Positions 16,663 to 28,922 of a stretch of DNA of 64,000 nt are shown here, in pieces. The notes under the pieces were generated by a model. The model was given only the letters and a program-made list of their open reading frames with translations, ran no database searches and was not told where the DNA came from. Position numbers and translations under genes: made by a program. Source of the stretch: Vicinamibacterales bacterium (GTDB taxonomy: Bacteria > Acidobacteriota > Vicinamibacteria > Vicinamibacterales > SCN-69-37). The DNA is taken from assembly GCA_030827135.1 (NCBI GenBank), contig JAURFE010000001.1, positions 1,062,368 through 1,126,367 on the forward strand, in the 5' to 3' direction. The first letter of the stretch is position 1. Each line of letters opens with the position of its first letter.

Positions 16663-17943
16663 TTGACCCAACAACCGCCGTCGACAGCCCCCGTCATCGA
16701 ACTCGCCACGCTCAAGGACATGAGCGTGGCCGAGTTGACCAAGGTCGCGCAGGATCTCGAAATCGTGCACGCCACCGGTCTGCGCAAGCAGGATCTGATC
16801 TTCCAGATTCTGCGCGCGCGGGCCGAAAAGAGCGGCCTGCTCTTCTCGGAAGGCGTGCTCGAGATGTTGCCGGACGGGTACGGATTCCTCCGGGCACCCG
16901 ACTACAACTACCTGCCAGGGCCCGACGACGTCTACGTGTCGCAGTCACAGATTCGGCGTTTTGATCTGCAGACCGGGGACACCGTGTCGGGGCAGATCCG
17001 GACGCCGAAAGAAGGCGAGCGCTACTTCGCGCTGGTGAAGGTTGACGCGATCAACTTCGAGCCACCCGACCGGACCCGCCGCCGCGTCTTCTTCGAGAAC
17101 CTGACACCGCTCTACCCGGACCGCCGCATCAGGCTGGAGACCGCCGGTGACAACTACTCCGCACGTGTCATGGACCTGATGACGCCGCTCGGCAAGGGGC
17201 AGCGCGGGCTGATCGTGGCGCCCCCACGGACCGGCAAGACGATGTTGCTGCAGAATCTCGCGAACAGCATCACCACGAACCACCCCGAGGTCTACCTGAT
17301 CGTGTTGCTGATTGACGAACGGCCCGAGGAGGTGACCGATATGCAGCGCTCGGTGCGCGGCGAAGTCGTGTCCTCGACCTTTGATGAGGCCGCCCAGCGC
17401 CACGTGCAGGTCGCCGAGATGGTGATCGAGAAGTCCAAGCGCCTTGTGGAATACGGCAAGGACGTCGTCATTCTGCTGGACTCCATCACCCGCCTCGCGC
17501 GGGCCTACAACACCATCGTGCCGACATCGGGCCGGGTGTTGACGGGAGGCGTGGACAGCAACGCCCTGCAGCGCCCCAAGCGTTTCTTCGGCGCCGCCCG
17601 CAATATCGAAAACGGCGGATCCCTGACCATTGTCGCCACCGCCCTCGTCGACACGGGATCGAGGATGGACGACGTCATCTTCGAGGAGTTCAAGGGCACC
17701 GGCAACATGGAGATTCATCTCGATCGCAAGCTGGCCGACCGGCGGATCTTTCCGGCGATCGACATGCAGAAGAGCGGCACCCGCAAGGAGGAGCTGCTGC
17801 TGCCGAAGGAGGAGCTCAACCGCATCTGGGTGCTCCGCAAGGTCATCACCTCGCTCTCCCCGACCGAGTCGATGGAACTGATGTTGTCCCGGATGTCCAA
17901 GACCAAAGACAACGCCGAGTTCCTCGGCGCCATGGGTAAATAA
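16663..17943 (+). CDS. rho: Transcription termination factor Rho
   Basis: This 426-residue RNA-dependent helicase terminates transcription. The N-terminal Rho_N helix bundle ([18 protein letters not shown], then [11 protein letters not shown]) is followed by the cold-shock-like RNA-binding fold ([20 protein letters not shown]) and the RecA-type ATPase. The P-loop is PPRTGKT at 187-193 and the Q-loop region lies around 280-290. The start is TTG at 16663; an internal ATG at 16720 would cut into the Rho_N domain, so TTG is preferred. A GCCGGG hairpin at 16627-16643 lies in the leader. The REP palindrome at 17955-18007 begins 12 bases after the stop and can serve as its terminator. Confidence 0.96.
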
Positions 17944-17952
17944 CTCCCCTCC

Positions 17953-18603
17953 TCAAAAAAGACGTCGGGTGTCTTTTTCCTCGAAAAAGACACCCGACGT
18001 CTTTTTTCGTGGCCGGCCTCTGGGCTTGGCACTTGACGCCCTGACTGCCTCAACTTCCTCTGCCGGCTGATCAAGGTTGACCCGTTCAACCCAGTCGAGC
18101 GGTTCAGCGATAGGCCACTCGTGCAGTGGCACCGGGCCACCTCCGACGCAGCGCTGGGAGAGGCTGCCCCATGGCCAATCCTCAGCTCTGTCGACAAGTC
18201 CGGCCCGAAGGGCGTTCCGCTCGACGTACCGACACACGGCGTAGAAATGCTGCGCTGACTGAATCGGAAACGCCTTAAACCTTCCCTGGTACACGGCACC
18301 GAGGCCCGTTGTCTTCCGGCTGGCGTGCCAGCGTTTGCTGTGGGTCCCCAGCAGGTGTTTCATGAAGCTCGAAAGCTGCCCGTCCTCGATCGGCTGCACC
18401 ACCAGATGAAAGTGGTTGGGCATGATGCAGTAAGCCAATAGCCTCACGGGTACCTTGTCCAAGGCGCCCAAGACGCAGAACAGAAACGCCCGGTAATCGG
18501 CATCCTGTTCGAACAGCGCCAATCTCCGGGCACCACGGTTCAACACATGGAATGGCACTCCCGCCGTGCCGCGACCCATACGATAGGGCATGCTAGGGCG
18601 CAT
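17953..18603 (-). CDS. REP-associated tyrosine transposase (RAYT, IS200/Y1-type)
   Basis: The 216-residue protein has the single-strand transposase fold of the Y1 HUH family: GVPFHVLNRG near the N-terminus, the HUH metal site His64-Phe-His66 in MPNHFHLVV, and the likely nucleophile Tyr126 in CRYVERNALRAG. DWPWGSLS follows, as in other RAYTs. RAYTs are usually single-copy domesticated transposases that move REP palindromes. This gene lies between two such palindromes, 17955-18007 (which codes its C-terminus KKTSGVFFEEKDTRRLF) and 18625-18675 (22 bases before its start). A start four codons in (MPYRMG) is an alternative. Stop codon TGA uses the first A of the palindrome. Confidence 0.88.
   Translation of the reverse strand: MRPSMPYRMGRGTAGVPFHVLNRGARRLALFEQDADYRAFLFCVLGALDKVPVRLLAYCIMPNHFHLVVQPIEDGQLSSFMKHLLGTHSKRWHASRKTTGLGAVYQGRFKAFPIQSAQHFYAVCRYVERNALRAGLVDRAEDWPWGSLSQRCVGGGPVPLHEWPIAEPLDWVERVNLDQPAEEVEAVRASSAKPRGRPRKKTSGVFFEEKDTRRLF
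17955..18007. repeat. REP-type perfect palindrome, copy 1 (also a two-way terminator)
   Basis: Two 24-base arms (17955-17978 and 17984-18007) are exact reverse complements around the loop CCTCG. The core is GACGTCGGGTGTC, flanked by A6 on one side and T6 on the other. The structure therefore has the shape of an intrinsic terminator in both directions and lies just after the rho stop. On the minus strand it also codes the last 16 or so residues of the RAYT protein. Confidence 0.9.
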
Positions 18604-18624
18604 TCAAGATTCGCGCCGGTCTAC

Positions 18625-18675
18625 AAAAAGACGTCGGGTGTCTTTTTCCTCGAAAAAGACACCCGACGTCTTTTT
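18625..18675. repeat. REP-type perfect palindrome, copy 2
   Basis: Arms 18625-18647 and 18653-18675 are 23-base exact reverse complements around the same CCTCG loop, identical in core to copy 1. It lies between the divergent starts of the RAYT gene and the aas-like gene, 20 bases before the latter, and could insulate or attenuate transcription. Confidence 0.9.
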
Positions 18676-18695: not shown

Positions 18696-21600
18696 GTGTC
18701 CTATCGGCAGACCCTCCAGTGCCCCGGCCTGCAGCCGTTTCTGTCGACGCAGTTCCTGGGGGCGTTCAACGACAACATCTTCAAGATGGTCGTCTCGTTC
18801 CTCGCGATGGACGCCCTGGGCGACGTTGAGGGCGTGACGCTCGTCGGCGCGGTGTTCATCGTGCCGTTTTTGCTGTTCTCCGGCTACGCCGGACATCTCG
18901 CGGATCGATACAGCAAACGCACAGTGCTTGTCTGGATGAAGTGGCTGGAGATCGCCGCCATGGCACTTGCCGTACCGGCGCTCCTCACCGGACACATCGG
19001 GCTGCTGCTGGCGGTGCTGTTCCTCATGGCCACGCAGTCGACCTTTTTCAGTCCGGCAAAATACGGCATCCTGCCGGAACTCCTCCCGGACATCGAGCTT
19101 TCGCGCGCAAACGGCTTGCTTGAAATGAGCACCTTCGTCGCGATCGTCGTTGGCACCTCGATCGGCGGCCTCGTTTTCACCGCGTTCCGCGACACCCCAC
19201 TTGTCATCGGCAGCGTGCTCGTCGGCCTCGCCATCCTCGGCACATGGACGAGCCTGCGCATTCCAGCGGTCCCGGTGGGCGGCACCGGGCGCACGCTGCA
19301 GTGGGCACCCTGGGGGGAGGTGCAGGCCGGGCTCCGGCGTCTCCTGTCGGATCGCACGCTGTGGATGACGGCCCTCGGCGCCTCGTTTTTCTGGTTCCTC
19401 GGCGCCCTGCTGCAGCTCGCACTGCTGCCGTATGCGACCTCCACACTCGGGGTGAACGCGGCCGCGGCCACACAGCTCTACACCGCGCTGGCCATCGGTA
19501 TCGGCGCCGGCAGCCTGCTGGCCGGACGTCTCAGCGGGAATCACATCGAGCTGGGCCTTGTGCCTCTGGGCTCACTCGGCATGGCGGTCTTCAGCCTCAC
19601 CCTCGCCGCGTCGTCCACCTCGTATTGGTGGTCGGCCGCCTCCCTGTTCGCGCTCGGCATCGCGGGAGGCTTCTTCGCGGTCCCGCTCAACGCACTGCTC
19701 CAGCATCGGCCCGAGGCTCACGAACGCGGGCGCATTCTTGCCACCGCCAACGTGATGCAGACGGTCGGCATCCTGCTCGCCTCAGCCGTGCTCTGGTTCT
19801 TCGGCACGCGGCTGGGCTGGACGATACCCGCCGTCTTCGCGGCTGCCGGCATCGTCACATTCATCGGCGGCGTGTACGTCCTGCTGACCCTGCCGGCGTT
19901 CTTCATCCGCTTCACGCTCTGGATGCTGACGCATACCGTGTACCGCATCAACGTGGTGGGGCGCGACCGCGTGCCGTACGACGGCCCGGCGCTCCTCATC
20001 TGCAACCACGCCTCGATGATCGATGGCGCGCTCGTAGGCGCAAGCGTCCACCGCTTCGTGCGTTTCATGATGCACGGGCCGTACTTCCACATCCCTGGCA
20101 TCCACTTCGTGATGCGGCGACTGCACGGCATCCCGATCACGGCCGGCGACAAGGCGGATGTCGAACGCGCCCTTCAGCGGGCCCGGCAGGAGCTGCGGGA
20201 CGGACACGTCGTCTGCATCTTCGTCGAGGGCGCCGTAAGCCGCACCGGCAACCTGCTCCCCTTCCGCCCCGGCTTCCAACGCATTCTCGAGGGCATCGAT
20301 GTTCCTGTGATTCCGGTGTACCTCGACCGCGTGTGGGGCAGCGTTTTCAGCTTCAAGCGCGGAAAGTTCTTCTGGAAGCGGCCGGAACGACTGCCGTATC
20401 CCGTGACTGTCGCGTTCGGCGCTCCGCTCCCCTCGACGCTCAGCATCCAGGACGCACGCCTGGCCATCAGCGAACTCGGCACCGAGGCGCTCAGGCATCG
20501 CATCGCGCCCACGGCGCAGCTCCAGACGGCGTTCATTCGCACAGCACGCCGACACTGGAGCCGGCTCGCTGTTGCCGATAGCACCGGCCAGACGCTGACC
20601 TATGGCCGCCTGCTCACGGGTGCACTCCTGTTGGGCCGCGTCATCAGGGCCCGCACCCACGGCCAGGCCCACGTCGGGCTTCTGCTGCCCTCTTCCGTCG
20701 GCGGCGCTGTCGCCAACATCGCGACGTTGATGGCCGGGCGCGTGCCGGTGAATCTCAACTTCACCAGCGGCGCCGACGGGATGGACCTGGCCAAACGCGC
20801 GGCGACCATTACGACCGTCATCACGTCACGGCGTTTCCTTGACAAGGCGGGCCTCGCCGCCACCCCCGACATGGTGTTCCTTGAAGACCTGCGGGACGAG
20901 ATCTCAGGTCTGCAGCGGCTGCTGGCACTCGTGCGTGCGCGCCTCACGCCTCAACGACTTCTGCGCGGCTCGGTCGGGAACGCGCACTGGTCCGCGTCCA
21001 GCCCCGCCGCCATCATCTTCTCGAGCGGCAGCACCGGTGTGCCCAAGGGCGTCGTGCTGACCCATGCCAACCTGCTCTCGAACGTGGAGTCGCTGACGCA
21101 GATCTTCCACATGCGACAGGACGACTGTTTTATCGGCGTCCTGCCTTTTTTCCATTCGTTTGGTCTCACCGGCACACTCTGGTTCCCGCTGCTGCAGGGA
21201 TGCGCCGTGGCGTATCACCCGAATCCGATGGACGCCAAGACCGTCGGCGAACTGGCGGAGACCTACAAGGGCAGCATGCTGATCAGCACGCCGACGTTCG
21301 CACAGAGTTACCTGCGGCGCTGCACCCGCGAGCAGTTCGCGCATCTGCGGTATGCCATTGTCGGCGCCGAGAAGCTGCGCGACCAGTTGGCGACGGCGTT
21401 CAGGGACACGTTTGGCATCGGCCTGCTGGAGGGCTACGGCTGCACGGAAATGGCGCCGGTCGTCGCCGCCAACGTGCCGGATGTCGAGACGGCTGGTCGC
21501 GTCCAGGTCGGCACCAAGGCGGGGTCCGTCGGACATCCCATCCCCGGCGTGGCCGCGAAGGTGGTCGATCCGGACACCGGAGAAGGTCCGCTGATCAATC

Positions 21601-22076
21601 GTGAAGGCCTGCTGCTGGTCAAGGGGCCCAACATGATGCGTGGCTATCTGCACGATCCCCAGCGCACGCAGGAGGTCATGCGCGATGGCTGGTATGTCAC
21701 CGGCGACATTGCCCGCATCGATGAGGACGGGTTCATCTTCATCACCGATCGCCTGTCGCGTTTCAGCAAGATCGGTGGCGAGATGGTGCCGCACATCAAG
21801 CTGGAAGACACGATTAACGATGTGCTCGGTGAACTCGCATCGGCTGTCACCGCCGTCCCCTGCGACGTGAAGGGGGAAAAGCTCATCGTGTTCTACACGA
21901 GACGCGATGTGCCTCCGGCGGAGTTGTGGGATCGGCTGATTGCCACATCCCTGCCACGACTGTGGATTCCCAAACGGGACGACCTCGTGCCGATTGAAGC
22001 CATCCCGACACTGGGCACCGGCAAGATCGACCTGCAGGCGCTGCGGACACTCGCGCGCGCGCGCGGCACGCACTGA
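18696..22076 (+). CDS. aas: MFS transporter / PlsC acyltransferase / acyl-ACP ligase fusion (Aas-LplT type)
   Basis: This 1126-residue three-part membrane protein recycles lysophospholipids. Residues about 1-415 are an MFS transporter of the LplT kind (FLGAFNDNIFKMVV, then twelve hydrophobic segments). PlsC follows with NHASMIDG (HX4D, His438-Asp443) and FVEGAVSRTG. The C-terminal AMP-binding ligase has SSGSTGVPKG at 776-785, GYGCTEMAP and the YVTGDIARID motif. In E. coli LplT and Aas are separate proteins; fusions of all three are known in other bacteria. The start is GTG at 18696; TATCGT nine bases upstream resembles a -10. It may supply acyl-lysolipid repair together with the carrier/acyltransferase protein at the left edge. 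Confidence 0.9.
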   Translation: MSYRQTLQCPGLQPFLSTQFLGAFNDNIFKMVVSFLAMDALGDVEGVTLVGAVFIVPFLLFSGYAGHLADRYSKRTVLVWMKWLEIAAMALAVPALLTGHIGLLLAVLFLMATQSTFFSPAKYGILPELLPDIELSRANGLLEMSTFVAIVVGTSIGGLVFTAFRDTPLVIGSVLVGLAILGTWTSLRIPAVPVGGTGRTLQWAPWGEVQAGLRRLLSDRTLWMTALGASFFWFLGALLQLALLPYATSTLGVNAAAATQLYTALAIGIGAGSLLAGRLSGNHIELGLVPLGSLGMAVFSLTLAASSTSYWWSAASLFALGIAGGFFAVPLNALLQHRPEAHERGRILATANVMQTVGILLASAVLWFFGTRLGWTIPAVFAAAGIVTFIGGVYVLLTLPAFFIRFTLWMLTHTVYRINVVGRDRVPYDGPALLICNHASMIDGALVGASVHRFVRFMMHGPYFHIPGIHFVMRRLHGIPITAGDKADVERALQRARQELRDGHVVCIFVEGAVSRTGNLLPFRPGFQRILEGIDVPVIPVYLDRVWGSVFSFKRGKFFWKRPERLPYPVTVAFGAPLPSTLSIQDARLAISELGTEALRHRIAPTAQLQTAFIRTARRHWSRLAVADSTGQTLTYGRLLTGALLLGRVIRARTHGQAHVGLLLPSSVGGAVANIATLMAGRVPVNLNFTSGADGMDLAKRAATITTVITSRRFLDKAGLAATPDMVFLEDLRDEISGLQRLLALVRARLTPQRLLRGSVGNAHWSASSPAAIIFSSGSTGVPKGVVLTHANLLSNVESLTQIFHMRQDDCFIGVLPFFHSFGLTGTLWFPLLQGCAVAYHPNPMDAKTVGELAETYKGSMLISTPTFAQSYLRRCTREQFAHLRYAIVGAEKLRDQLATAFRDTFGIGLLEGYGCTEMAPVVAANVPDVETAGRVQVGTKAGSVGHPIPGVAAKVVDPDTGEGPLINREGLLLVKGPNMMRGYLHDPQRTQEVMRDGWYVTGDIARIDEDGFIFITDRLSRFSKIGGEMVPHIKLEDTINDVLGELASAVTAVPCDVKGEKLIVFYTRRDVPPAELWDRLIATSLPRLWIPKRDDLVPIEAIPTLGTGKIDLQALRTLARARGTH

Positions 22077-25207: not shown

Positions 25208-26505
25208 TCGGACTCCAGCAATGGGGCGGCCGCAAGGCCGCCCTTTTGTTTTTCCTGCTCGAGTTTTTTCGCCAGCCGGCCCAACCGGTGATCGACCTCG
25301 GCCACTCGTCGCCCTGATGTCTGGCCGCGCACGACCTGCGCGTAGCGGTGCGCCGACGCCAGGTCGCCGGCGCGATGTTCATGATGAATTGCGAGAGCTT
25401 CGGCCGCGCGGCGTTCAATCGCGCTGAATGGTCGCTTCGCGCGATCGACGATTAGTTGCCACGCTTCCACCGCCCCATCGAACCGACGCGTGCGCCGACG
25501 GAGCAGCGCGAGGCGCTCAAGCGCCCGGGCGCGCAACTCCCGGTCGTCCGCCCCTGCTGACGCCAGAGCAAACGCTTCTTCGGCACGCCCGAGATCGCCC
25601 TGCCGTTCGTAGAGATGGCCCAGCCCGAGTTGTTCACACGCTTCACGGCACCATGTCGGCCCCTCTGACGCGAGTTGGAAGGCACGCGCGGTCACGGCCG
25701 CGAGCGAGATCAGGTCGAGGCGGTTGTGCTCGAGCACGCCGTCGATGATCGAGGGATCGCCGGTGCGGAGAAACTGGAAGTACCGCACGGGGATTTCGAA
25801 ACCCGGCACATCACCCACACGATGAAAACCCAGCACGGAGCGCTCGAGCGCCGTGAGGCTACAGCTGGTGTCGTCCTCGCGGCGGCTCCACAGCCGGCGT
25901 GCCGCCGGCAACATGTCGAAGTGCGGCAAGTCGTCGGTCGGGGTGGACTGCCGATGGAACGCCCATCGCGTTTCCATGAACGGCACGTCGAACGTCCGGC
26001 CGTTAAACGTCACCAGCAACGATGCGTCGTCCATCGCGCGCCCCAACGCGTCCAGCAATGGGCGCTCGCCCGCAGGACCGAGCATCAGCCACTGGCGCAC
26101 ACGGAATGCCTCGGCCTCAAACCATCCGCAGCCCACGAGGAATGCCACCGTGCCGGCGCCCCCGCTCAGGCCCGTGGTTTCGATGTCGAAGAACACCGTG
26201 CGCGACGCCCAATCGGATGTCGAGGCCAGCTTCGGATCAAAAAGCGCGAGCGGCGCATCCGGCGACAGACGGTACGACTCTACGGTGCGAGACCCGTGAT
26301 ACCGATCGGCGTCGTACACACGGTCCACAACCAGGCACGCCGAGCCCGCCTCGCCAAGCACCGTGCCCCCGAGCACGTCGGCAGACCGGGCAACAACGTC
26401 GGCGAACGTGAAGCCGCCTCCGGGGACCAGCAGATCCGGCTCGACCGTCAGTTCGCGCCTGTTCTCGCGGACGATCGCCCGGAGGCGCTCGGCGAGATTC
26501 TTCAC
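25204..26505 (-). CDS. mrfB: MrfB/YprB-like DEDD exonuclease with TPR-like C-terminus
   Basis: The 433-residue protein has an RNase H-fold exonuclease domain with the DEDD acidic residues in FFDIETTGL (near residue 106), VTFNGRTFDVPF and EHNRLDLISL. A helical repeat region follows (LGHLYERQGDLGRAEEAF) that looks like TPRs. This is the layout of B. subtilis YprB (MrfB), which with the helicase YprA (MrfA) repairs mitomycin C damage. Here it follows mrfA with a 4-base ATGA overlap, so the two are co-translated. Assignment rests on the domain pair and synteny. Confidence 0.85.
   Translation of the reverse strand: MKNLAERLRAIVRENRRELTVEPDLLVPGGGFTFADVVARSADVLGGTVLGEAGSACLVVDRVYDADRYHGSRTVESYRLSPDAPLALFDPKLASTSDWASRTVFFDIETTGLSGGAGTVAFLVGCGWFEAEAFRVRQWLMLGPAGERPLLDALGRAMDDASLLVTFNGRTFDVPFMETRWAFHRQSTPTDDLPHFDMLPAARRLWSRREDDTSCSLTALERSVLGFHRVGDVPGFEIPVRYFQFLRTGDPSIIDGVLEHNRLDLISLAAVTARAFQLASEGPTWCREACEQLGLGHLYERQGDLGRAEEAFALASAGADDRELRARALERLALLRRRTRRFDGAVEAWQLIVDRAKRPFSAIERRAAEALAIHHEHRAGDLASAHRYAQVVRGQTSGRRVAEVDHRLGRLAKKLEQEKQKGGLAAAPLLESD
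25224..25253 (+). terminator. Intrinsic terminator of rpmE inside the 3' end of mrfB
   Basis: GGGCGGCC (25224-25231), loop GCAA, GGCCGCCC (25236-25243), then TTTTGTTTTT. This is a textbook intrinsic terminator on the plus strand. It lies in the coding sequence of the convergent mrfB gene and encodes part of its KGGLAAAPLLE tail. Confidence 0.85.
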
Positions 26506-28922
26506 CGCAGCACCGCCAACAGGTGTGACGCGACGGCTTTCGCCAGCGGCCCGGTTGCACCCTCAGGGCCCACACACGACGGGCATCCCGACTGACACGG
26601 ACACCCTTCGATCAGCTCCTGCGTACGCGCCAGCAGATCCGCATGCATCTGGAACAACGGCTCACTGAACCCGATGCCACCGGGATAGTTGTCGTAAATG
26701 AAGATCGTCGGTGCGACGGTCGCCAGCGTCTTGGCTTCTTCCGCGCCGACACCGTCCACGGACAACCCCAGGTCGTGGGAGTCACACATCAGCAACAACG
26801 GCGCGACATTCCGCATCGCAAATGCGAGCCCCAACACGCCATCGCGCTTGTCGGCGCCGCCATAGGGCAACGCCTCCATTTTCTCCGCCGGAATCGTCAG
26901 CCAGTATGACGACGTGTGCATCTGTTGCTCGGGGAGATCCAGCTCCCCCGAACCAATGTTCTCGTTCGTGTAGAACTTGATCTTCTTGAAGCCGACAACA
27001 CGGGACACGACGTGCACTTCGCCGTGGTGTCTGGGCTCTGAGGAAATGACGTCGGGTGTCTTTTCCGGCGCGCCCTCATCGGAAAAGACACCCGACGTCA
27101 TTTCCTCCAGGATCGTCACCTTCGTGTAGTCAATCGCATCGGTGTAGTAGTCGCACTCGACGCTGCGGACAAAGGCCTTGCGGTTCTCGAAGTCGAGGCG
27201 TTCGACCTGGAACAGCTGGCCTTCGATGATGTAGATCGCCTTCTCGTGGAGCACCGACGGCGCGCTCGTAAAGTCGGTCTCGCCGATCACGCGTTCGCCG
27301 TGCGTCAGGTCCACGATGATGAAGTTGTCGGACGACACCGACCGCAGGCTCACCGCGTCGGCCGGATACGATTCGTGCGTCCACTGCCACTGGTCGCCGG
27401 CGAGCTGCACGAACTGCTCTTCACTCAGGATTTGAAGCATTTCCTGAACGTTGAGGGTGCCGAAGCGCTCGGTCGTGGTGAATGGCAGCTCAAACGCCGC
27501 ACACTTCACGTGTGCGAGCAGAATGTGCAGGTTGTCAGGGTTGACCAGCGCGTGCTCAGGCGACGCTTCAAAAAAGTAGTCGGGGTTGCGCGCCACGAAC
27601 TGGTCGATCGGCGCACTCGACGCCACCAGCACCGCCGCCGATCGGCCGGAGCGCCGACCGGCGCGGCCGGCACGTTGCCACGTCGCGGCAATCGTACCCG
27701 GGTAGCCGGCCATGACCGTCACGTCCAGCGCGCCAATGTCGATCCCGAGTTCCAGCGCACTCGTGGACACCACGCACCGCACGCTGCCCTCGCGCAATCC
27801 GCGTTCGATCTCGCGACGACGGAGCGGGAGGTAGCCGCCACGATAGCCACGCACGACCTCGGCCGCACCCGGGGGGCCTGCAAACGCGTCCTTCAAATAC
27901 GTCGTGAGAATTTCAGTCGAGAGCCGGCTCTGCGCGAACACGATGATCTGGAGTCCGCGCTTCAGAAATTCGATCGCGACCCGTCGGGTCTCCGCGAGGT
28001 AGGACCGTCGAATGCCAAGCTGTGCGTTCACGACCGGCGGATTCACGAAGATGAAGTACTTCTCACCGCGTGGCGCACCGCTCTGTTCCACAAGCTCAAA
28101 CGGCGCACCAACCAGCTTCTCGGCCAGGTCACGCGGATTGGCGATCGTCGCCGACGAACAGATGAACACCGGGTTCGATCCATAGTGCCGGCACACGCGG
28201 TGCAGGCGGCGAAGGATATTCGCCAGATGGCTGCCGAACACCCCGCGATAGGCGTGGAGTTCGTCGATGACGATGTACTTCAGATTCTCGAACAGCTTCG
28301 CCCAACGCGGATGGTGCGGCAGGATGCCCGAGTGCACCATGTCCGGATTGCTCAGAACGACGTGGGCGCGGCCACGAATCGCACGCCTCGCATCCTGCGG
28401 CGTGTCTCCGTCGTAGGTGAACACGCCGATTTCGCCGCCCCCCTCCACACCGAGCAACTCCGCCAGCTGATGGAGCTCTGCCAGTTGGTCCTGAGCCAGG
28501 GCTTTCGTCGGAAACAGATACAACGCGCGCGTGGACGAGTCCTTGAGGATCGCGTCCATCACCGGCACGTTGTAGCAGAGCGTCTTGCCGGAGGCGGTCG
28601 GTGTGACGGTCACCACGTTGCGGCCGGATGTCGCATGCGCAATCGCCTCGGCCTGGTGGGAGTACAACTGGTCGATCCCGCGTTTGCGCAGGGCCGCAAT
28701 CAAACGGTGGTCGAGTGTGTCTGGAAACGGCGCGTACCGCGCCTCGACCGGGTCCAGGCGCCGGACCGCAGTCACATGCGGGTCGTCATCGGCTCCCTGG
28801 AGGGCCTGCTCGTGCTCTGCGAGCATCCGGGACAGCGCCAGGGACAGCGACTCGTCCTTGCTCTTCGCGTCCACAAGCGCGGGCAGGACGGTCATAGGCA
28901 GGCGGCGCCGGTCGGATGACAT
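26502..28922 (-). CDS. mrfA: MrfA/YprA-like DEAD/DEAH helicase with DUF1998, carrying an in-frame REP insertion
   Basis: This 806-residue superfamily 2 helicase has Walker A-type TPTASGKT, motif II as DELH in VIDELHAYRG, motif III SSATIANP, motif VI QRAGRAGRRSG, and a C-terminal MZB/DUF1998 domain with four cysteines (CPCQSGCPSC) that bind metal. In B. subtilis this protein and MrfB act in nucleotide-excision-independent repair of mitomycin damage. Around residues 606-627 the sequence EEMTSGVFSDEGAPEKTPDV is coded by a perfect 26-bp-arm REP palindrome (27041-27106) that keeps the frame; it sits in a loop before HHGEVHVVSRVVG. A -10-like TACGAT lies 8 bases before the ATG. Confidence 0.88.
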   Translation of the reverse strand: MSSDRRRLPMTVLPALVDAKSKDESLSLALSRMLAEHEQALQGADDDPHVTAVRRLDPVEARYAPFPDTLDHRLIAALRKRGIDQLYSHQAEAIAHATSGRNVVTVTPTASGKTLCYNVPVMDAILKDSSTRALYLFPTKALAQDQLAELHQLAELLGVEGGGEIGVFTYDGDTPQDARRAIRGRAHVVLSNPDMVHSGILPHHPRWAKLFENLKYIVIDELHAYRGVFGSHLANILRRLHRVCRHYGSNPVFICSSATIANPRDLAEKLVGAPFELVEQSGAPRGEKYFIFVNPPVVNAQLGIRRSYLAETRRVAIEFLKRGLQIIVFAQSRLSTEILTTYLKDAFAGPPGAAEVVRGYRGGYLPLRRREIERGLREGSVRCVVSTSALELGIDIGALDVTVMAGYPGTIAATWQRAGRAGRRSGRSAAVLVASSAPIDQFVARNPDYFFEASPEHALVNPDNLHILLAHVKCAAFELPFTTTERFGTLNVQEMLQILSEEQFVQLAGDQWQWTHESYPADAVSLRSVSSDNFIIVDLTHGERVIGETDFTSAPSVLHEKAIYIIEGQLFQVERLDFENRKAFVRSVECDYYTDAIDYTKVTILEEMTSGVFSDEGAPEKTPDVISSEPRHHGEVHVVSRVVGFKKIKFYTNENIGSGELDLPEQQMHTSSYWLTIPAEKMEALPYGGADKRDGVLGLAFAMRNVAPLLLMCDSHDLGLSVDGVGAEEAKTLATVAPTIFIYDNYPGGIGFSEPLFQMHADLLARTQELIEGCPCQSGCPSCVGPEGATGPLAKAVASHLLAVLR
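27041..27106. repeat. REP-type perfect palindrome, copy 3, inside mrfA
   Basis: Arms 27041-27066 and 27081-27106 are 26-base exact reverse complements around a 14-base loop. The core GACGTCGGGTGTCTTTT matches copies 1 and 2, while the outer arm bases and the loop differ. It is 66 bases long (22 codons) and has no stop in the mrfA frame. Confidence 0.9.

Follow-up and report, generated by a model that had tools for sequence, protein, structure and literature searches.

A transposase gene between its own palindromes beside rho: a probable source unit of a REPIN-RAYT-like system with copies read in frame within genes

REPIN-RAYT systems, or REPtrons, consist of a single-copy Y1 transposase gene bracketed by a palindrome that is dispersed through the genome as inverted pairs (Bertels and Rainey 2011, PMC3116915; Nunvar 2013, PMC3686654). 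The sequence of the palindrome changes along with that of the RAYT, different palindromes can occupy orthologous RAYT sites (an 'orthoswitch'), palindrome abundance follows the cognate RAYT, and the copies are mostly extragenic, with only 14 of ~1067 16-mers overlapping genes in P. fluorescens SBW25. In the orthoswitch model the old palindromes stay and decay, and that they may be partly replaced is mentioned as a remark only. In TIRtrons, or TIRYT (Di Nocera 2013, PMC3733652), RAYT-like genes, some of them from Acidobacteria, lie between long repeats. Some of these repeats are self-complementary, they can extend over the 3' end of the gene, and their families are of moderate size. Rickettsia and a few other bacteria are known to have palindromes that are translated as part of genes. 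The Rickettsia palindromic elements (RPE) and other intragenic REPs (PMC10969869; PMC3733652) include in-frame palindromes in housekeeping genes, among them uvr and dnaE/dnaE2, which yield peptides of some tens of residues, and the CGTC repeats (including RPE-4 and RPE-6) have been reported without a transposase. The rho-aas locus described here is probably, as judged from sequence, the source unit of a REPIN-RAYT-like system with the spread and turnover proposed below.

The window, the 64 kb stretch of DNA that was analysed, holds the following features.

16663 to 17943, plus strand: rho, transcription termination factor (TIGR00767, 712.8 bits), the upstream neighbour
17953 to 18603, minus strand: RAYT-type Y1 (HUH) transposase of 216 aa, with matches to Pfam Y1_Tnp, REP_Tyr_transpos and 4er8
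17955 to 18007, no strand: palindrome copy 1, an inverted half-unit pair with 25-bp arms and A6/T6 ends
18625 to 18675, no strand: palindrome copy 2, located 5' of the RAYT gene, with 24-bp arms
18696 to 22076, plus strand: acyl-ACP--phospholipid O-acyltransferase (aas; MFS, acyltransferase and AMP-binding), the downstream neighbour
26502 to 28895, minus strand: HRQ1/MrfA-like DEAD helicase (Pfam DEAD, Helicase_C, MZB, WHD_HRQ1), host of the third copy
27040 to 27107, no strand: third palindrome copy, with 28-bp arms and a 12-nt loop, coding EEMTSGVFSDEGAPEKTPDVISSE in frame in the helicase gene

The arms of copy 1 (17955-17979 and 17983-18007) are 25 nt long and 100% complementary around a CTC loop, and those of copy 2 (18625-18648 and 18652-18675) are 24 nt long around the same loop; the 51-nt cores of the two are 100% identical, with A5/T5 ends in copy 2 versus A6/T6 in copy 1. 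The palindromes are perfect in their arms only, the 3-nt loop not being self-complementary. Three perfect inverted repeats with arms of at least 12 are present in the whole window, all of one family, against a mean of 0.33 in simple shuffles of it, which excludes a chance origin.

The transposase gene lies between rho and aas on the strand opposite to both, and 11 nt separate the end of the rho stop at 17943 from the start of copy 1. Its product matches Pfam Y1_Tnp above the cut-off (2e-10), scores below the 80-bit cut-off of NCBIfam REP_Tyr_transpos (NF047646; 1.2e-19, 70.6 bits), resembles TnpA-REP 4er8 (E 3e-5) and displays HFH and YVERN motifs by eye; a genome search recovered a single copy of this RAYT clade. 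The reading frame runs through all of copy 1 to a TGA just behind it, the last 17 codons lying within the palindrome (minus strand), and the C-terminus reads ...KKTSGVFFEEKDTRRLF. A preliminary description of this DNA had already proposed palindromes identical in core and loop around a Y1 transposase, one of them coding the end of the protein, and both points hold. A scan of the 15-30 kb part of the window against Rfam gave no match. Elsewhere in the genome, a second rho gene (G000:C11:57490-58164, L107; counterparts in G003-G006) is ~83% identical to the window rho over the C-terminal half and has no palindrome behind it. A further RAYT-like match (G000:C33:2808-3284, L084) is distant (37%), lies within a longer open frame without bracketing palindromes and is perhaps a degenerate copy.

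Beyond the window, a census of the stretches fetched around matches recovered ~44 copies of the palindrome family in the window genome (G000; G001-G013 denote related genomes), including the two beside rho. The unit spans ~47-60 nt and is built from two inverted half-units. The genome has 16 exact matches to the half-unit AAAGACACCCGACGTCTTT and 66 with up to three changes, mostly arranged as inverted pairs, whereas a reversed control gave 0. Many copies are present in G001, G002 and G006, which belong to the same genus; the other genomes have few or none, and G003, a genome without a window-type RAYT, has none. The earlier assignment to mobile DNA is supported more widely than it had been stated, by a dispersed family and a cognate transposase. 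In G002, a contig ends in a long, nearly perfect inverted repeat (C119:3487-3584, L065), which is probably an assembly artefact.

Palindrome and transposase are closely associated. All 10 of 10 close RAYT homologues lie between two matched palindromes. Each has a palindrome of its own, whose sequence varies between RAYTs with CGGG as the usual core. Half-copies of the G004 palindrome number 80 in G004 versus 0-4 in the other genomes, and the palindrome of a G008 and a G013 RAYT was found only in G008 and G013; both of these families, counted genome-wide, are thus abundant only where their RAYT exists. The exception is G001, rich in the window's family, where no RAYT of the clade was found; the rho locus was not found there either, and the region may be missing from its assembly. 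Because of this association, and of the known biochemistry of TnpA-REP, we infer that each RAYT spreads its own palindrome. Further families were also encountered. A third, AACGACCTCNGAGGTCGTT, occupies 57 places in G006 and 20 in G002 and is read in frame in hosts such as helicase and UvrC orthologues; no transposase was identified for it. A fourth, GGGTGTCGATCTGTGGAAA, is present in G001, G005 and G006 (L073, L075, L082), and in G001 it forms part of the coding sequence of both UvrC and MetH. The same three genomes have another RAYT clade, more distant than the first, whose partner may be a GGGGACGGGTGT-like motif that lies close to it.

The architecture agrees with REPIN-RAYT systems in its single-copy Y1 transposase bracketed by a dispersed inverted-pair palindrome, in the joint change of RAYT and palindrome, including different palindromes at orthologous RAYT sites, and, G001 excepted, in abundance following the cognate RAYT. 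A reading as canonical GTAG or CGTC REPs was rejected. The half-units of G000 and G004 lack, by eye, the unpaired GTAG/GTGG foot of the GTAG type. CGTC-type REPs carry an unpaired CGTC tag at one end of an 8-9 bp stem and have no transposase, whereas here CGTC lies within the arms of the window's family, is absent from the G004 half-unit, and a transposase gene is bracketed. As in TIRtrons, the bracketing repeats are self-complementary, form a family and may overlap the 3' end of the gene; the GGGGWSAS of some TIRs is, however, absent by eye from the palindromes bracketing these RAYTs.

A marked departure from REPIN-RAYT systems is that about half of the copies reside in genes. Genes were called with a simple hexamer-based finder, which had been trained on the fetched stretches, rather than taken from curated annotation. 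By these calls, 23 of 44 copies in G000 lie entirely within genes and 5 others straddle a gene end, and 22 of 41 elements in G004 lie entirely within genes; coding DNA makes up ~94% of the stretches, so genes are hit below the random rate, yet often. Hosts in G000 include MetH, UvrC, TrmFO, NagA, DnaE2, the helicase, HpnE (twice), YgfZ, LpxK, a heptosyltransferase, PbpC and the linker of a MeaB-MCE fusion; eight of the hosts were checked against Pfam, and the other names are putative. Many copies are read in frame within essential enzymes. The in-gene copies are in-frame loop insertions of roughly 7-30 aa. Orthologue alignments display loop peptides added at the element sites, and the solved TrmFO 3g5q is without exactly the stretch coded by the element.

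No frame of the window lineage's consensus element contains a stop codon, and copies can therefore enter genes and be translated. Although all frames are open, 15 of 21 in-gene cases in G000 use the KTSGVFF frame; G006 and G001 favour the same phase, and G004 favours its MSSEAIS frame. The bias amounts to 15/21, 17/22, 9/10 and 9/13 in the four genomes (p 4e-4 to 9e-3 each), the counts from related genomes not being fully independent. Among the few copies sampled of the stop-containing palindromes of other RAYTs, in G008 and G013, none was wholly inside a gene. The RAYT tail itself reads copy 1 in the favoured frame, and RAYT homologues end before the palindrome, at its edge, or read another frame; a conserved functional tail was accordingly rejected. 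The tail looks incidental, the homologues without it suggest that it is dispensable, and it can be regarded as one more in-frame copy of the coding palindrome. The protein-coding role proposed earlier is borne out at the sequence level, with copy 1 being among many copies in frame in host genes. These traits recall Rickettsia, where in-frame insertion into genes of known function, uvr and dnaE2 included, and a preferred frame are likewise found, but the coding palindrome here also brackets a transposase gene.

The sister genome G004 carries another RAYT at the same rho site and another palindrome family. The RAYTs directly behind rho in G000 and G004 are 54% identical, against 93.9% for the concatenated host proteins, and the RAYT and host trees are discordant, the G000 RAYT grouping with those of G006 and G002. 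In 10 of 10 tested host genes the same loop carries G004's own palindrome. When all fetched copies are compared, 23 of 41 elements in G004 lie at the place of one in G000, where random placement would give 0.08. As the G000 family is also found in five of the shared loops in G001 or G002, G004 is probably the derived state. In HpnE the borders, GGAAATGA...TCATTTCC, are common to both families, and UvrC of G004 resembles a hybrid element; complete old arms around a new element were found at none of the G004 sites.

Nesting was detected in G006, where a G000-type element sits at the centre of another family's palindrome (C43:10668-10836, L353), with similar cases at at least two more places (C28:58505-58640, L316; C2:2460-2570, L363). 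The outer arms of the nested palindromes are GGGGACGGGTGTCGATCTGTGGAAAA, and the inner element is from a different family. An initial flank-complementarity profile of all copies rose only mildly above shuffles next to the core; with the A/T border skipped and the extension scored, outer-flank complementarity over 136 copies was above all 500 shuffles, an excess due to the few nested cases, and direct nesting concerns few copies only. These data suggest in-place turnover by insertion into hairpin tips. The shared sites are observed; tip insertion with later loss of the old arms is what we infer, and it would explain nesting, hybrids and shared sites alike. That RAYT exchange led to site-for-site overwriting of the whole coding-palindrome population via old hairpin tips is a tentative reading, which we hold with slightly less than even confidence.

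In-place turnover has to be weighed against its main rival, in which each family independently hit a limited pool of tolerant sites in loops and at gene ends. The shared loops vary in both length and sequence, also in G003 and G005, where these families are missing from them, and many hosts take the insertion in loops between conserved blocks, congruent with such a pool. On the other hand, with equal chances for every site, sharing at 23 of 41 sites would need a pool of only ~78 per genome, a figure that strongly unequal sites would relax, and the shared borders in HpnE, the hybrid in UvrC and the presence of the G000 family at five of these places in G001 or G002 speak against independent hits, which we judge rather unlikely. 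An origin without any RAYT was considered as well, in which replication slippage or template switching at inverted repeats formed the palindromes and the transposase landed between two of them. Palindromes promote template switching in general, and some flanks do extend the inverted repeat. Yet the palindrome matches the bracketed RAYT in every one of the ten homologues, the counted families are concentrated where their RAYT is, and G003, without the window-type RAYT, has zero copies, which leaves this origin very improbable and RAYT-driven spread as the preferred reading.

Copy 1 could also be chiefly a (bidirectional) intrinsic terminator of rho, to which mobile and coding roles were added. 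Both strands score in a terminator scan, each with a stable hairpin directly followed by a T-run, and the RNA fold is strong (-43.1 kcal/mol, z -10.8), in line with the preliminary description, which had ascribed terminator form in both directions to this copy. Intergenic copies lie behind gene ends, 48 being convergent or co-directional versus 3 divergent, and pooled over three genomes the T-runs are slightly longer in intergenic than in coding copies (4.1 vs 3.2 T, p 0.02). However, coding and intergenic copies do not differ in T-runs in G000 itself (p 0.73), and T-run length is a weak sign of terminator selection. Translated genes, among them metH and LPS genes, contain this hairpin too, with comparable T-runs. 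Purifying selection would equally leave copies behind gene ends, where REPs in general are reported to lie (PMC3733652). Nor is the terminator form conserved behind rho in the relatives: the G004 palindrome there has no T-run directly behind the stem and supplies the TGA stop of rho, the G006 palindrome has T4, and in G003 rho lies ~58 nt from aas with no hairpin between. G004 palindromes at gene ends, such as L190:7312-7352 and also the one at rho, share 13-14 nt with the gene and provide its TGA stop. The expectation that relatives without a RAYT beside rho would lack the palindrome there held in G003 but not in G013, which has a different palindrome after rho and its own RAYTs elsewhere, nor apparently in G005 (C42, L096), whose 119-nt rho-aas interval contains AGTCGGCGAGTCTTTTTCGATAAAGAAAA, possibly a palindrome decayed after loss of the unit. 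A terminator function of copy 1 for rho is thus possible by form, not rho-specific and not conserved, and as its chief role it is unlikely. From the triple role claimed at the outset, mobile DNA is supported and the coding of the protein tail is supported at the sequence level, while the terminator of rho was not established.

Aggregated into a mechanism, the preferred reading is that a single-copy Y1 (HUH) transposase, whose gene has a copy of its target palindrome on either side, would act on single-stranded hairpins and so spread the palindrome through the genome. The stop-free palindrome would enter genes and be translated as loop insertions, the copies kept being those in frame and mostly in one frame. 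Copies at gene ends follow the stop codon closely or provide it themselves, and some may act as terminators. New copies would sometimes land at the centre of existing palindromes, probably at hairpin tips, and when a lineage gains a different RAYT and palindrome, the new palindromes would take over the old places.

REPIN-RAYT pairs, orthoswitches, TIRtrons, REPs inside genes and the coding palindromes of Rickettsia are already published. In the literature searched, no paper joins RAYT with Rickettsia palindromic elements, site-for-site palindrome replacement is not described, and neither in-frame insertion nor site replacement is described for TIR families. Within that literature, three points are new: coding palindromes with a matching RAYT in a genus that has several parallel families, a measured preference for one frame although none is closed by stops, and the replacement of palindromes at orthologous sites once the RAYT had been exchanged. 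Such replacement departs from the published picture, in which old REPs decay in place, as the new palindromes here occupy the old sites. With coding palindromes, a matching transposase, parallel families and sister genomes in different states, the movement of coding palindromes, the tolerance of one frame and the displacement between families are testable now. If the overwriting is true, the same enzyme loops would carry successive generations of selfish peptides.
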